57,078 nt of DNA. Origin: a virus. Positions 5,066 through 8,564 of this stretch are shown in pieces. The stretch's first letter is position 1. The number at the start of each line of letters is the position of its first letter. Under the pieces are notes generated by a model. The model was not told the DNA's origin, did no database searches, and saw only the letters and a program-made list of their open reading frames with translations. The stretch lies in IMG/VR virus record IMGVR_UViG_3300044641_001763, positions 1 through 57,078 of that record; one strand, 5' to 3'. The position numbers and the translations under genes were made by a program.

Positions 5066-5706
5066 CAGAATGGGATGTCGTCGTCAACACTATCGTTGTT
5101 TGTCAGCGGCGTTTCATTGGCAAGTTCGTTTCGATTCTGCCATTCAGGCGCGGACTGAATTTTTTCCTTCAACGACCGGCTGAACGTCTCGAACAGGGCC
5201 ATGTCGGGTTCATCCAGGCTAAAGATTGCCAAAGTGTTGAACCCTTGAGGGAGACCGGTTTTTTTGATTGCAGCGGGGACGGGGTTCACCGACATGATGT
5301 TCGTGTATTCCTTACCGTTGTTGCCGATGGCCTTAGCTATAGACAGCATGGCCCAGTGTCCGAGGATGTTCTTCAGCAGGAAGCCTTTAAGCTCTTCTTT
5401 AGTGAAGTCACGACCGCGCCACCCGGCGAGGTCTTTGCGGAGTGAGGCTTTTTCACCCAGCATGTTGGTGTAGTTCTTTGAGATGGACAGGGGTTCGCCC
5501 TTAGACGTGATCAAGGTCTTTCCGTTGTCGTCTTCGCCGTGGACCTCGAACTGGATCATCAGCTTGTGCAGGTACTTGATCTCACCCTGGTACTCGCTTT
5601 TCTGGGTACCTAGATCAACGATGCGGTAGCACCGCGCAAGGTGCATTCCGGGGGGTACGGGTGTGAAGCTGCTTTCGTTTCCGCTATCGCGTGCAATCAG
5701 AGGCAT
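5065..5706 (-). CDS. Phage single-stranded DNA-binding-like protein
   Basis: 213 residues. The C-terminus is the acidic tail DSVDDDIPF, the signature used by bacterial SSB proteins to dock partner enzymes, preceded by a disordered Asn/Glu-rich stretch. The N-terminal 150 residues have a beta-rich pattern compatible with an OB fold but are not classical SSB. It lies upstream of the PD-(D/E)XK nuclease on the same strand with a 1-nt overlap. The function, coating ssDNA and recruiting the nuclease or host replication proteins, is inferred from the tail and context. Confidence 0.78.
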   Translation of the reverse strand: MPLIARDSGNESSFTPVPPGMHLARCYRIVDLGTQKSEYQGEIKYLHKLMIQFEVHGEDDNGKTLITSKGEPLSISKNYTNMLGEKASLRKDLAGWRGRDFTKEELKGFLLKNILGHWAMLSIAKAIGNNGKEYTNIMSVNPVPAAIKKTGLPQGFNTLAIFSLDEPDMALFETFSRSLKEKIQSAPEWQNRNELANETPLTNNDSVDDDIPF

Positions 5707-5873
5707 GGTTCGATTCCTATGGTTTCAAGAATGACTTTGGGGCGCTGTACGACGCCGCATTCGTATCGGATGATGGTCCAGTCGTCTTCAGTCGCCACGC
5801 CCGCCTGAGCGCGTTCTATGGCTTCCTCGACGCGCTGCTGTCGCTCGATCATAAGTTGATGAAATTCTTCCAT
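5697..5873 (-). CDS. Small hypothetical protein (58 aa), first gene of the leftward operon
   Basis: ATG at 5873-5871, preceded on the minus strand by GAGAAGGAGAAGCGA, a strong ribosome site. The protein (MEEFHQLMIERQQRVEEAIE...) has an N-terminal amphipathic helix and a short C-terminal part with one DDW and two cysteines. It overlaps the start of the SSB-like gene by 10 nt, so translation is probably coupled. No family was recognised. Its position nearest the divergent promoter means it would be the first product of the leftward transcript. Confidence 0.7.
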   Translation of the reverse strand: MEEFHQLMIERQQRVEEAIERAQAGVATEDDWTIIRYECGVVQRPKVILETIGIEPCL

Positions 5874-5938
5874 TCGCTTCTCCTTCTCTGTGGTGTAACA
5901 ACTTCAAATAATATAACATACGATTACAGGAGGCAACT
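5874..5938. promoter_or_regulatory. Divergent early promoter/operator region
   Basis: AT-rich 65-bp gap between the leftward SSB/nuclease operon and the rightward cro-like gene. The leftward strand has TTGCCT (5936-5931), a 17-nt spacer and TATTAT (5913-5908), a good sigma-70 match. The rightward strand has TAACAT (5914-5919), four bases, then TTACAG, a spacing repeated at other gene starts in this genome. AGGAGG at 5928-5933 is the ribosome site of the cro-like gene. The two promoters overlap, so one bound repressor could control both. Confidence 0.6.
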
Positions 5939-6139
5939 ATGACTTTGAGAGATTTTTTTAACGGTCAGCCGCGGGGTGCTGCGTCGAAGCTAGCGGTGCG
6001 GGTAGGCGTGACCCCTACTTGGATGGCGCTGATCACAAACGGGCTGCGGAAGCCGAGCCTGCGTCTGGCTGTTGAGATTGAGAAGGCGACTGACGGTGCG
6101 GTGACGCGTCAGGAGCTGCGTCCGGACGTGTTCGCATGA
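5939..6139 (+). CDS. Cro-like / YdaS-type helix-turn-helix regulator
   Basis: 66 residues, mostly a single helix-turn-helix domain: GAASKLAVRVGVTPTWMALI then TNGLRKPSLRLAVEIEKAT, typical of phage Cro/YdaS-type DNA-binding proteins that recognise short palindromes. The start is set by a consensus AGGAGG 5 bases upstream. It is the first rightward early gene, facing the minus-strand operon across a shared promoter region, the classical place for Cro. No partner CI repressor gene was seen. It overlaps the next gene by 4 nt. Confidence 0.85.
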   Translation: MTLRDFFNGQPRGAASKLAVRVGVTPTWMALITNGLRKPSLRLAVEIEKATDGAVTRQELRPDVFA

Positions 6140-6456
6140 ACTGGTACAAGTTCCCGCTCGAGCAGTACAGGGAGATTTCTAAGTACTTGCCTGACGCTGA
6201 AGACTTAGCGTTCCGGCGGATGATCGATCTGTACTACATGGGCAAGGGGCCGTTGCCGCTCGACAGAGATTGGTTGATGGCGGAGATCCGGCTTGACTGG
6301 GACTGTATCGAGCCGGTTTTGTATGGGTACTTCACCCAGACGCCGGAGGGGTGGATGAACGACTACCTACAGGCGGATGTTGTTGCTCGACTGAAGCGAA
6401 GCGAGACGAATTCTAAGAGTGGCAAACAGGGCGGTCGCCCGAAGAAAGGAGCATGA
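6136..6456 (+). CDS. DUF1376/YdaU-type replication protein, N-terminal domain only
   Basis: 106 residues: MNWYKFPLEQYREISKYLP..., with the YdaU/DUF1376 pattern of Y-x-F, L-x2-AFRRMIDLYY, then PLP and a DGW-like turn. The family normally continues through a variable linker into a C-terminal helical domain of the O-protein kind. Here the frame stops after a basic Lys/Arg/Gly tail (GGRPKKGA). A separate ORF at 7285-7563 supplies what looks like the missing C-terminal domain. Likely role: origin recognition in a host-dependent, lambda-like replication scheme. Confidence 0.85.
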   Translation: MNWYKFPLEQYREISKYLPDAEDLAFRRMIDLYYMGKGPLPLDRDWLMAEIRLDWDCIEPVLYGYFTQTPEGWMNDYLQADVVARLKRSETNSKSGKQGGRPKKGA

Positions 6457-6457
6457 G

Positions 6458-6781
6458 ATGAAGTGGCTTGCAGCTATCACGATAGCAGTTTCTTTCAACG
6501 TCCAAGCCGAGTTTTACTCGGGCAATGACTTGCTAAACAAGTTGAACTCAGAGAGCACGTTAGACCGTGCCTTGGCTTTGGGATACATCGCCGGAGTGTC
6601 TGACTACGGTACCAACGTGGTCAATTGCCTTCCGAAGTCCGTGACTCTCGGGCAGTTGAAAGACCTTGTACAGGCGCACTTGGTAAGCAACCCGTCCTCG
6701 AGGCACTTCTCTGCAGACAGCATCATCACAAACCTGCTGCAACGGACGTGGCCTTGTGCGCCACGCGGTAGAACGTCTTGA
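6458..6781 (+). CDS. Secreted Rap1a/Tai-family-like protein
   Basis: 107 residues from ATG at 6458, 1 nt after the previous stop. Residues 1-17 (MKWLAAITIAVSFNVQA) are a Sec signal peptide with an Ala-x-Ala-like end. The mature part has the order expected from the Rap1a/Tai immunity family: SGNDLL, GYIAGVSD, Cys57 followed by VTLGQLKDLV, a YL/HL-x-NP-x-SRH segment, and a final Trp-Pro-Cys100. The usual cysteine after SGNDLL is replaced (LNKLNS). In bacteria the family neutralises periplasmic amidase effectors. A phage role in guarding or modulating peptidoglycan hydrolysis is inference. Confidence 0.7.
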   Translation: MKWLAAITIAVSFNVQAEFYSGNDLLNKLNSESTLDRALALGYIAGVSDYGTNVVNCLPKSVTLGQLKDLVQAHLVSNPSSRHFSADSIITNLLQRTWPCAPRGRTS

Positions 6782-6819
6782 CAGGCTTTTAGCGAGCTTG
6801 TATCGTTCTCTTCGTTGGT

Positions 6820-6924
6820 GTGAGAGCCGACTGAGAGCCGTCTAGCAAGATCCCGACCCCGTAAGGGGTAGCCCAAGCCGCAAACTTGGGTCTCTCACCG
6901 GGGTCTTCCTAGACGGTTTTTTTT
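6820..6924 (+). ncRNA. Branched structured RNA ending in an intrinsic terminator
   Basis: The outer stem pairs 6838-6845 (CCGTCTAG) with 6909-6916 (CTAGACGG), eight perfect pairs, and is followed by eight T residues. Past a C-C mismatch, 6847-6855 pairs with 6899-6907 over nine pairs including one G-T. Two hairpins sit inside: ACCCC-GTAA-GGGGT (6856-6869, GNRA-like loop) and CCCAAG/CTTGGG (6872-6890). CTCTCAC (6892-6898) is unpaired but complements GTGAGAG at 6820-6826, allowing a 7-bp pseudoknot. TGAGAGCCG is repeated at 6821 and 6832. At minimum it is a terminator for the gene ending at 6781. The branched fold suggests a further RNA function. Confidence 0.6.
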
Positions 6925-6936
6925 CGTCCTTACGCC

Positions 6937-7200
6937 AGCCGTTCCGCTCACGCAGCAGTGCTCCTGCATGGGAGCCAGCGGAAAACACCGGCTAGTCATC
7001 ACCCTGACTGCACGCCGTCTAGCCTGTCTGCGAGGGACTAGGGAAGACGCCTGGGACAGCGGTGGTAGACCACCCAGGAATCGAAACAATCGCAGCCTCC
7101 GGGAACTCTGGCTACAGCATAGGACGCTGCAAGCGGGAGAGGTAGAGCTAAAGTGTTTGGCTCCACCCTGGGGGAACTATGCCCGAAGCATCTTCAGACT
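6937..7200 (+). other. Non-coding, strongly self-complementary region between the two replication ORFs
   Basis: No convincing gene. Successive helices can be drawn: AGCCG+TTCCGCT (6937-6948) with AGCGGAA+CGGCT (6977-6993), enclosing GCTCC/GGAGC (6960-6975); CCTG/CAGG around GGTGG-TAGA-CCACC (7050-7078); GCATAG (7117-7122) with CTATGC (7177-7182), enclosing CGCT-GCA-AGCG (7125-7135) and GGT-A-GAGC/GCTC-C-ACC (7141-7167). A third copy of CCGTCTAG lies at 7015-7022. This may be a structured RNA or, since it lies between O-like protein halves as lambda ori lies inside gene O, a replication origin. An AT-rich stretch follows at 7207-7260. Confidence 0.5.
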
Positions 7201-7222
7201 ATCTGTGAAGAAATTCTGATAG

Positions 7223-7268
7223 AAAAATTTCACAACCAAAGCCTGTACGTTTAAGATAAAGTTACAGC
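7223..7268 (+). promoter_or_regulatory. Putative sigma-70 promoter for the replication genes
   Basis: TTTCAC (7228-7233), 18 bases, TAAGAT (7252-7257), then AAAG and TTACAG (7262-7267). It precedes AACAGGAGAACAC, the ribosome site of the gene at 7285. The TAAnnT, four bases, TTACAG arrangement matches 5914-5929 and 9826-9841. Confidence 0.5.
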
Positions 7269-7284
7269 GTCAACAGGAGAACAC

Positions 7285-7563
7285 ATGAAACCTACAGATG
7301 TTTCAGACGAGTGCTGGTCAGACTTTCTGCGGCACCGCAAGGAGAAACGAGCCATTGTCACGCCGCGGGTGATTCGCATGATCCGAGACGAGGCTGCGCA
7401 GGCCGGGTGGTCACTTGAGCAGGCGCTCGATCACATGATGTTAATGGGCTGGCGCGGCTTCAAAGCCGATTGGGTTGAGCGCAAGGCGCAGAAGCAGGAT
7501 CTGTGGAACCACTTGGTCAACAATGTTGTGGAAATGCCATGCAAAGCTATTGTGAACGATTGA
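7285..7563 (+). CDS. C-terminal domain of a YdaU/O-type replication protein as a separate ORF
   Basis: 92 residues. The order W-x2-F-x3-RK-x2-RAIVT..., then EAAQAGWSLEQALDHMM and GWRGFKADWV is the C-terminal helical domain usually found after a DUF1376 or O-like N-terminal domain, the part thought to contact the helicase loader. Here it has its own promoter, ribosome site (CAGGAG) and ATG. The probable N-terminal partner ends 828 nt upstream. It overlaps the P-like gene by 25 nt. Either the initiator works as two subunits or the gene was split by insertion. Confidence 0.75.
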   Translation: MKPTDVSDECWSDFLRHRKEKRAIVTPRVIRMIRDEAAQAGWSLEQALDHMMLMGWRGFKADWVERKAQKQDLWNHLVNNVVEMPCKAIVND

Positions 7564-8087
7564 TCGACCGGTTCGGAGTTTTGTGGGGTCGGCAGAAGGT
7601 CGTCGCGCAGTTCGGAACAACAAAGGCCGAGATCGACGACACGAAAGCCGCCTGGGAGAACCAGTTGCGTTCGGTGTCGCCGGATACGATCCAGCGGGTG
7701 TTGCGGCATTTGCAGAGTGATCCTCCGGCATGGCCGCCGTCGTTGGCCGAGTGGATCTCCCTCTGCAAGCAGTTCAACGCGGTTGAGCATCGAATTGCAT
7801 TGCCGCCGCCCCCGAAGCAAGTCACTGACGAAGGCAAGCAGTTGATCGCCGAGGCCATGACTAACATGATGCAGACGGGCGACCCGTTGGGATGGGCGAA
7901 GTATCCCGGATCGGAGCTTGCGGTTCAGTTCATCGCTCGAGGCGCTCGTGAGGATCGTAGACTGCGAGACATCCTAGATCATCACTTGAGCACCGATGGA
8001 CGAGACTGCAGACGAGAAGACGCTCGCAAGGCGATCCGAAGCTTTCAGGCATCAATGCGAAGTCAACTGGCTGTTGCGCAAGATTGA
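7539..8087 (+). CDS. Replication protein P-like helicase loader
   Basis: 182 residues from ATG at 7539 (MQSYCERLIDRFGVLWGRQK); a start 36 nt earlier is open but lacks support. Features match the lambda P-type loader family: an N-terminal L-x2-RFG-x-LWG segment, a helix with W-x3-L (AAWENQLRSVS), and the hallmark AWPPSLAEWISLCKQF near residues 70-85. Such proteins load host DnaB onto the origin-bound initiator. The gene order (O-like C-terminal domain, then P-like) repeats lambda. The C-terminal third is helical and charged. Confidence 0.75.
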   Translation: MQSYCERLIDRFGVLWGRQKVVAQFGTTKAEIDDTKAAWENQLRSVSPDTIQRVLRHLQSDPPAWPPSLAEWISLCKQFNAVEHRIALPPPPKQVTDEGKQLIAEAMTNMMQTGDPLGWAKYPGSELAVQFIARGAREDRRLRDILDHHLSTDGRDCRREDARKAIRSFQASMRSQLAVAQD

Positions 8088-8229
8088 TGCAGCAAAGGAC
8101 AAGAAAGCAGCCATGCACGACTACATCGATCTTGTGAGGAAAGCCCGCGGTGATGCTGCCGCGGACAAACTCATCGCAGACAGTCGCGACCAGTGGGGCA
8201 AGGGCAACCGGGGAAACGAATGGAAGTGA
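7996..8229 (+). CDS. Small conserved phage protein with RHQCEV-x-WLL motif
   Basis: 77 residues, overlapping the P-like gene by 92 nt. The overlap is needed because the motif RHQCEVNWLLRK starts at residue 18. This motif resembles a family of short phage proteins often found near RusA genes; the family name is not certain. The C-terminal half is a Lys/Asp-rich helix (ARGDAAADKLIADSRDQW). The stop overlaps the RusA start by 10 nt. Function unknown. Confidence 0.65.
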   Translation: MDETADEKTLARRSEAFRHQCEVNWLLRKIDAAKDKKAAMHDYIDLVRKARGDAAADKLIADSRDQWGKGNRGNEWK

Positions 8230-8564
8230 CCCTGCCCTGGCCACCGTCGGTCAACACTTACTGGCGGATGTTTCAGAATCGGATGATCATCAGTCAGGCG
8301 GGGCGGCAATACCGTACAGCGGTGACTGAGCAGATCTTGATCCAGCGGGGGGCGAAGCACTACACCGCGCCGCTAAAGGTTGAGATCGAGGCTTGGAGGC
8401 CGGACAAGCGCAAGCGTGACCTTGACAACCTACTGAAGGCTGTGCTGGATTCGCTCGCGCACGCCGGGGTGTTTGAGGACGACAGTCAGATCGTGGACTT
8501 GCGCATCTACTGGGGTCCGCTGATTGGGGGAATGTTGAAAGTGAAGATTGAGGAAATCAAATGA
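8220..8564 (+). CDS. rusA: RusA-family Holliday junction endodeoxyribonuclease
   Basis: 114 residues, close to E. coli RusA length. The opening MEVTLPWPPSVNTYWR and the active-site block KRKRDLDNLLKAVLDSL with Asp67 and Asp69, then FEDDSQI with Asp88, correspond to the three catalytic aspartates of RusA. It cuts four-way junctions made during recombination or replication before packaging. The ATG at 8220 is chosen because the family starts with this LPWPPS-like strand. It is embedded in the replication operon with overlaps on both sides (10 nt upstream, ATGA downstream). Confidence 0.92.
   Translation: MEVTLPWPPSVNTYWRMFQNRMIISQAGRQYRTAVTEQILIQRGAKHYTAPLKVEIEAWRPDKRKRDLDNLLKAVLDSLAHAGVFEDDSQIVDLRIYWGPLIGGMLKVKIEEIK

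Follow-up and report, generated by a model that had tools for sequence, protein, structure and literature searches.

A two-module structured RNA cassette between a standalone DUF1376 gene and a C-terminal-only O-like gene in a metagenomic phage

Introduction

Two open reading frames (ORFs) of a viral genome raise the question of whether a single replication initiator gene has been broken in two. The window, that is, the whole stretch of DNA analysed here (57,078 nucleotides), is a 57-kb IMG/VR virus record in which the genes of the locus of interest all lie on the + strand. A 106-aa ORF matches positions 1–107 of the 272 positions of phrog_6451, a primosomal family, and a 92-aa ORF further downstream matches positions 180–246 of the same family (1.4e-9), so that the two outer ORFs correspond to opposite ends of one protein family. 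An earlier note on this DNA had read them as the halves of one O/YdaU-type initiator, and had proposed that the DNA between them had grown around the replication origin or that the phage uses a two-subunit initiator. We compared the locus with its relatives among viral contigs, isolated phages and known RNA families, and assessed which account of the locus is best supported.

Results

Genes of the locus

Profile searches confirmed the reported identity and order of the outer ORFs. The locus begins with a gene for a YdaS/Cro-like regulator (5939–6139; Pfam YdaS_toxin, 4.1e-9; phrog_35 transcriptional repressor, 3e-12), which is also kept upstream of DUF1376 in L002–L005 and L013–L016 (loci compared are given as L numbers). 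It is followed by the 106-aa DUF1376 gene (6136–6456), which matched PF07120 over the cut-off (3.1e-11). The 92-aa ORF (7285–7563) matched, in addition to phrog_6451, positions 219–291 of phrog_678, annotated as 'replication initiation O-like' (1.1e-13), and is overlapped by a gene for a P-like helicase loader (7539–8087; phrog_109, 6e-4), whose position next to the C-terminal-only O gene is conserved in relatives.

The outer ORFs are separated by 828 bp (6457–7284), as had been noted, and the gap holds a Rap1a/Tai4-like secreted-protein gene (6458–6781) with a signal-peptide-like start (PF18602, 8.1e-18; phrog_3870, 1.8e-19). The remainder, described earlier as about 0.4 kb of self-complementary non-coding DNA, is in fact 503 bp without a gene; its self-complementarity was borne out. 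The + strand RNA of the non-coding part folds at -202.5 kcal/mol, compared with -167.2 +/- 6.3 kcal/mol for shuffled sequences (z = -5.6), and the - strand folds more weakly (z = -2.5).

The DUF1376 gene and the O-like gene

Relatives of the window's DUF1376 ORF are encoded at 15 viral loci, and the ORF is 47–76% identical to the standalone genes of L002–L016. At six loci (L006, L007, L008, L010, L013 and L016) a standalone DUF1376 gene of about 105 aa lies beside an intact full-length O gene, which carries its own DUF1376-type N-terminal domain. In a tree, one branch (support 100/99) split eight standalone DUF1376 sequences, that of the window included, from seven N-terminal domains of O. Because the tree puts the ORF in the standalone clade, it is a standalone gene and not the severed N-terminal half of O, and the missing part is the N-terminus of O. 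This placement, together with the coexistence of the standalone gene with full-length O in relatives, contradicts the idea of a single gene broken into these two ORFs.

The arrangement of DUF1376 with a C-terminal-only O is also present in the phage of L002–L005. DUF1376 passed the cut-off in only 2 of the 18 cassette-bearing records searched, namely the window and its sister G008 (most of these records are partial); therefore, a general partnership between DUF1376 and C-terminal-only O is unsupported. Similarly, tblastn at the loci with C-terminal-only O, on contigs that are partial, found DUF1376 in none except the L005-type phage, and a two-subunit initiator is not supported as a general rule.

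The isolated-phage relatives of the C-terminal-only O are full length and have differing N-terminal domains; together with the full-length proteins of L006, L008 and L010, they agree with the earlier statement that O proteins are normally fused. The C-terminal-only O genes, including that of the window, formed one clade in 94% of bootstrap trees (support 89/89), and in the window phage the N-terminal, DNA-binding domain of O has been lost. A separate ribosome-binding site (RBS) and ATG serve the O gene, and there is no N-terminal exon upstream of it.

The same O-like C-terminal domain was seen with different N-termini in L105, L106 and L108 versus L107, L109, L110 and L111. The N-terminal part is of the DUF1376 type in some phages and of another, apparently winged-helix, type in others. 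Given this variety of N-terminal partners, the C-terminal domain behaves as an exchangeable module. A group I or group II intron within O was considered and rejected, as Rfam scans gave no intron match and there is no exon to join.

Structure of the RNA cassette

The gene-free DNA contains two RNA modules, A and B, and the aligned elements share the order promoter, A, terminator, B. The sigma70-like promoter (6778–6806; TTGACA-17-TATCGT) has a -35 box that overlaps the stop codon of rap1a. In nearly every aligned element a -35/-10 pair occupies the same position ahead of A, even though the remaining flank differs.

Module A (6813–6924, ~112 nt) matched its covariance model at 3.8e-17, the window itself being part of that model. 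Its P1 hairpin (6814–6831) has five pairs, and the loop of this hairpin pairs into the intrinsic terminator, forming a pseudoknot in which the loop strand 6820–6826 (GTGAGAG) pairs with 6892–6898 (CTCTCAC). The terminator stem (6837–6845/6909–6916) is followed by a T run (6917–6924). Across 31 sequences the pseudoknot was 100% paired, and both partners vary in six of its seven pairs. Compared with 500 shuffles, the structure was reached 0 times on four measures and three times on one, and it exceeded every slid control. In addition, the near-identical loci L130 and L131 differ by a compensatory change in the pseudoknot (TAGCAA/TTGCTA vs TTGCAA/TTGCAA). All alignments were built by sequence, and helix counts may be slightly off.

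Module B, of a type that we call B1 (6928–7180, ~255 nt), is pseudoknotted, has several covarying hairpins and starts about 10–17 nt past the A terminator in most elements. It was recognized by nhmmer matches between 1e-8 and 1e-154 and by a comparison with the sister phage L005, which has no Rap1a gene at this site (the gene is absent from the locus throughout L002–L005) and keeps 259 nt of non-coding DNA at 79% identity. Of 54 pairs in B, 28 change on both sides; none of 500 shuffles reached the structure on any of the five measures, and it was also above the slid controls. A long-range contact between columns 155 and 277 of alignment A6 is C-G in 17 sequences, A-U in three, U-A in three and unpaired in one. 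The six-base loop-loop complement CUGCGA/UCGCAG is invariant, and by its invariance carries no covariation information. The pair counts exclude the 5' hairpin of B near 6944–6980 (CCGCT/AGCGG, CCCTC/GAGGG), whose two size classes are offset by a column in the alignment.

The window also holds an 18-nt repeat, 83% identical, at 6829–6846 and 7006–7023; it is the 5' strand of the A terminator (GACTGAGAGCCGTCTAGC), which recurs within B (GACTGCACGCCGTCTAGC). By eye, the repeat was absent from the other elements looked at.

Distribution and modularity of the cassette

Copies of the cassette were gathered by exact-motif scans and profile searches of IMG/VR contigs. A was carried by 129 loci and B1 by 119 (several per contig in places, and some contigs were sampled repeatedly); these comprise 53 different A and 58 different B1 sequences. 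Every carrier is a metagenomic viral contig, and a single cassette copy per contig was found in 18 of 18 contigs searched.

B1 occurs in at least two contexts. In one it lies upstream of the C-terminal-only O and P genes, often after ThyX; in another it lies between terminase and portal-region genes, and the C-terminal-only O was not found in those phages. On the contig of L007, whose O is full length, and L147, the A cassette adjoins the terminase genes. The promoter and the conserved RNA structure persist across these unrelated gene contexts, as expected of a trans-acting phage RNA.

The cassette is also modular. After A, B1 is replaced by other modules in L124/L132, L131/L143, L138/L140/L147, L134/L154 and L137, and the B1 model still detects some of the elements (L137, 4e-28; L149, 6e-27; L134/L144, 2e-6; L143, 0.002). 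L072 and L073 are 100% identical in O/P and 99% in B, yet they carry different A modules, with a 333-nt A-B gap that contains an ORF; L080 and L099 are 99% identical in B and 95% in O/P, yet their A modules belong to different size classes. By these comparisons of sequence, A alleles appear to have been exchanged between otherwise near-identical loci.

In some elements of either context (L073, L074, L081, L091, L139 and L142) an ORF of about 90 aa separates A from B. Its protein (MEG..RSRKKAVQQLHDATDPKFAVFMRSPSGHSAKF...) has no PHROG or Pfam family, and in L085 the gene lies upstream of B. In L075 the space between the modules is instead taken by a tRNA-like RNA (5782–5960); it scored 33.6 bits for Rfam tRNA, and ARAGORN did not call it. 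A long stem (GCGTTTTTTAGGTGG.../...CCACCTAAAAAACGC) closes off this RNA, which is overlapped by a weak, sub-threshold Y RNA-like YrlA match.

Directly upstream of A, about 40 loci from both contexts have a gene for a Cys-rich secreted peptide of about 48 aa. The gene of this peptide (...ACSTHTYFVNGRYVTCTTCCYGSNCNTNCF) lies about 10–170 nt before A, for example in L080, L099, L044, L029, L057 and L143. In the window and in L138 the slot is filled by a Rap1a-like gene; that of L138 is 42% identical to the window's and lies at the same distance from A.

Association with the C-terminal-only O gene

A protein search with seven C-terminal-only O queries gave 47 loci, with B upstream in 46 and A in 44. 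Contig ends truncate the three loci that have no A; one of these has no B either. Eight of the 46 B-bearing loci are in contigs that were found by the protein search alone and missed by the RNA scans. The queries came from cassette-bearing phages, and the search favoured that clade; because of this, and because the clade may reflect a single descent event, the link between B and the C-terminal-only O alone is not proof of joint function.

The distance from B to O is mostly 102–116 nt and longer in some loci. In the window it is an A+T-rich spacer (7181–7284; 39% G+C) that includes the RBS of the O gene; such a spacer was found in the O context and not after the terminase-context copies. A search of 5700–8250 for lambda-type iterons gave no tandem repeat set, only isolated two-copy matches. 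Cumulative GC skew climbs through the window without a switch at the locus, a switch that many phages do not show.

Searches for known relatives

Rfam 15 gave no gathering-level match in the window, and low-threshold Rfam scans of the window and its relatives yielded only sub-threshold chance matches on A and B, by which a known RNA family was rejected. Near-threshold matches to the type II hammerhead ribozyme were seen at L155:3629–3687 (- strand, 33.5 bits) and L100:3144–3200 (27.6 bits), against a gathering threshold of 37.

Several A-B types searched by blastn against 50,697 phage records of sequenced isolates gave nothing convincing, nor did the window RNA searched by blastn against plasmids. 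An exact 19-mer scan of bacterial genomes returned one unrelated match (L103). Run with strict filters and without a positive control on 399 genomes from the phylum to which that match belongs, the A model found no element. The cassette is not described in the open-licence papers searched, which is weak evidence of absence from the literature.

Stenotrophomonas phage CUB19 (L108:2088–2225) and six phage S72-like records gave a weak match to the A model (E 0.008). The matched element has a long terminator hairpin, into which a strand lying upstream could pair, and is near a full-length O gene. It is possible that this is a distant A element in cultured phages.

Discussion

We consider it probable that the locus combines a standalone DUF1376 gene and a C-terminal-only O gene having a P-like loader with, between them, a portable cassette of secreted-protein gene and two-module RNA, that is, a non-coding 'moron' that acts in trans. 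The confidence that we attach to this and to three other readings is a judgement and not a computed value. The cassette would consist of a small secreted-protein gene, Rap1a-like here and more often that of the ~48-aa Cys-rich peptide, and the structured RNA modules A and B. A short A RNA would be made from its own promoter and would stop at the A terminator, and a longer A-B RNA may arise by partial read-through of that terminator or by transcription of the surrounding operon. The folded RNA may then act in trans on a function of the host or of a rival phage, and the lost function of the O N-terminus may be supplied elsewhere, whether by the solo DUF1376 protein, by a protein of the host or in some other way.

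The cassette is present in one copy, has its own promoter, occupies unrelated insertion sites, exchanges alleles and has diverse B types, all of which fits a moron under diversifying selection; the partner genes common to both contexts are a further point in favour. Against this reading, the tie between B and the C-terminal-only O (46 of 47) is tighter than a free-roaming moron need show, a tie that common descent of one clade can explain. We give even weight to belief and doubt in a broader proposal, in which the cassette would represent a diversified, modular superfamily of phage RNAs with a promoter-driven, self-terminating, pseudoknotted A, interchangeable B types, optional cargo and an upstream secreted protein, moving as a moron and acting in trans in conflict between phage and host or between phages.

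The main rival is that the RNA is a cis-acting regulatory leader, in which A would be a conditional terminator, riboswitch-like or similar to put and antitermination systems, and B a further leader domain, the two gating the downstream operon. A conserved intrinsic terminator does end A and separate it from B, one strand of the pseudoknot lies inside the terminator hairpin, and A-B is co-directional with the downstream genes; the weak A-like element of phage CUB19 and its relatives also stands directly before a gene. However, the downstream genes differ wholly among contexts (the C-terminal O and P genes, portal-region genes and others), A has its own promoter, and B, which begins so shortly after the terminator, is as elaborate as a trans-acting RNA. 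We therefore regard a cis-acting leader as unlikely, although it deserves to be weighed.

We assign little credence to a replacement of protein by RNA, in which origin recognition or priming, once the task of the N-terminus that O has lost, would have passed to the A-B RNA or DNA, working with the C-terminal-only O and P. The presence of B before nearly every C-terminal-only O gene, including those of contigs reached only by protein search, the lack of B at the O locus of the full-length O relatives examined, and the A+T-rich spacer between B and O speak for it. However, the same B1 RNA lies beside terminase in phages without the C-terminal-only O, and it is for this reason that we rate the reading low. 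One of the terminase-context phages encodes an unrelated HTH_36 protein, possibly an initiator (a role that is inferred), the locus has no iterons, and the C-terminal-only clade looks like one event, so that the link may be one of descent. The proposal of the earlier note that the insert had grown around the origin meets the same objection: any such growth was not peculiar to O, as the cassette is also found between terminase and portal-region genes without this O, and the phage of L007 and L147, with an intact full-length O, has an A cassette near terminase. Because the cassette also lies beside terminase in phages with other initiators, it does not appear to be part of the initiator.

Least credible of all is the view that an insert has divided a single O/YdaU initiator gene into two parts that now act as separate subunits. 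It could draw on the matches to opposite ends of phrog_6451 and on the same layout in the phage of L002–L005, but the standalone clade, the full-length O beside its members and the lack of DUF1376 in most contigs with C-terminal-only O already contradict it as an account of how the locus arose.

Compared with lambda-type O/DUF1376 (YdaU) systems, the locus is similar in that the 92-aa ORF is an O-like C-terminal domain beside a P-like gene and the 106-aa ORF is a DUF1376 domain; it differs in that there is no fused protein, DUF1376 is a separate gene of another clade, and only the C-terminal domain of O is left. Morons of phages are independently transcribed inserted genes. The cassette resembles them as an extra unit with promoter and terminator, present in one copy between unrelated phage genes, whereas its conserved and diversified part is a non-coding RNA and its protein partner is variable. 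The put RNA of HK022 and riboswitch-type terminators are structured 5' RNAs tied to the control of termination; module A is likewise a structured RNA associated with termination, but it is driven by a promoter of its own, stands ahead of very dissimilar genes and has a second large RNA after it.

GOLLD and ROOL are ornate, pseudoknotted RNAs of phages and prophages whose function is unknown; in GOLLD the 3' region is conserved and the 5' region less so, and the linker sometimes contains tRNAs (PMC12286853). The cassette RNA is also large, elaborate and pseudoknotted, and the tRNA-like RNA between A and B in L075 recalls the linker tRNAs of GOLLD. In contrast to both, the cassette has no Rfam sequence or covariance-model match, measures about 370 nt with two modules and an internal terminator rather than ~650–800+ nt, and is linked to a small secreted-protein gene. 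It would fall within 'large structured phage RNA' if the kind is taken that broadly, and as an RNA system we regard it as new, since neither its sequence nor its structure nor its two-module layout is matched by any known family.

To our knowledge, only a small number of large, structured RNAs have been described from phages, and GOLLD and ROOL, which have been studied most, have no known function. The cassette adds a further, apparently unlisted large phage RNA whose covariation is strong, whose boundaries are clear, whose alleles are swapped in nature and whose protein partners recur; its function is therefore testable by deletion and swapping. In addition, a clade of phages whose O protein lacks the N-terminal, presumably origin-binding, domain makes origin recognition in these phages a concrete question.
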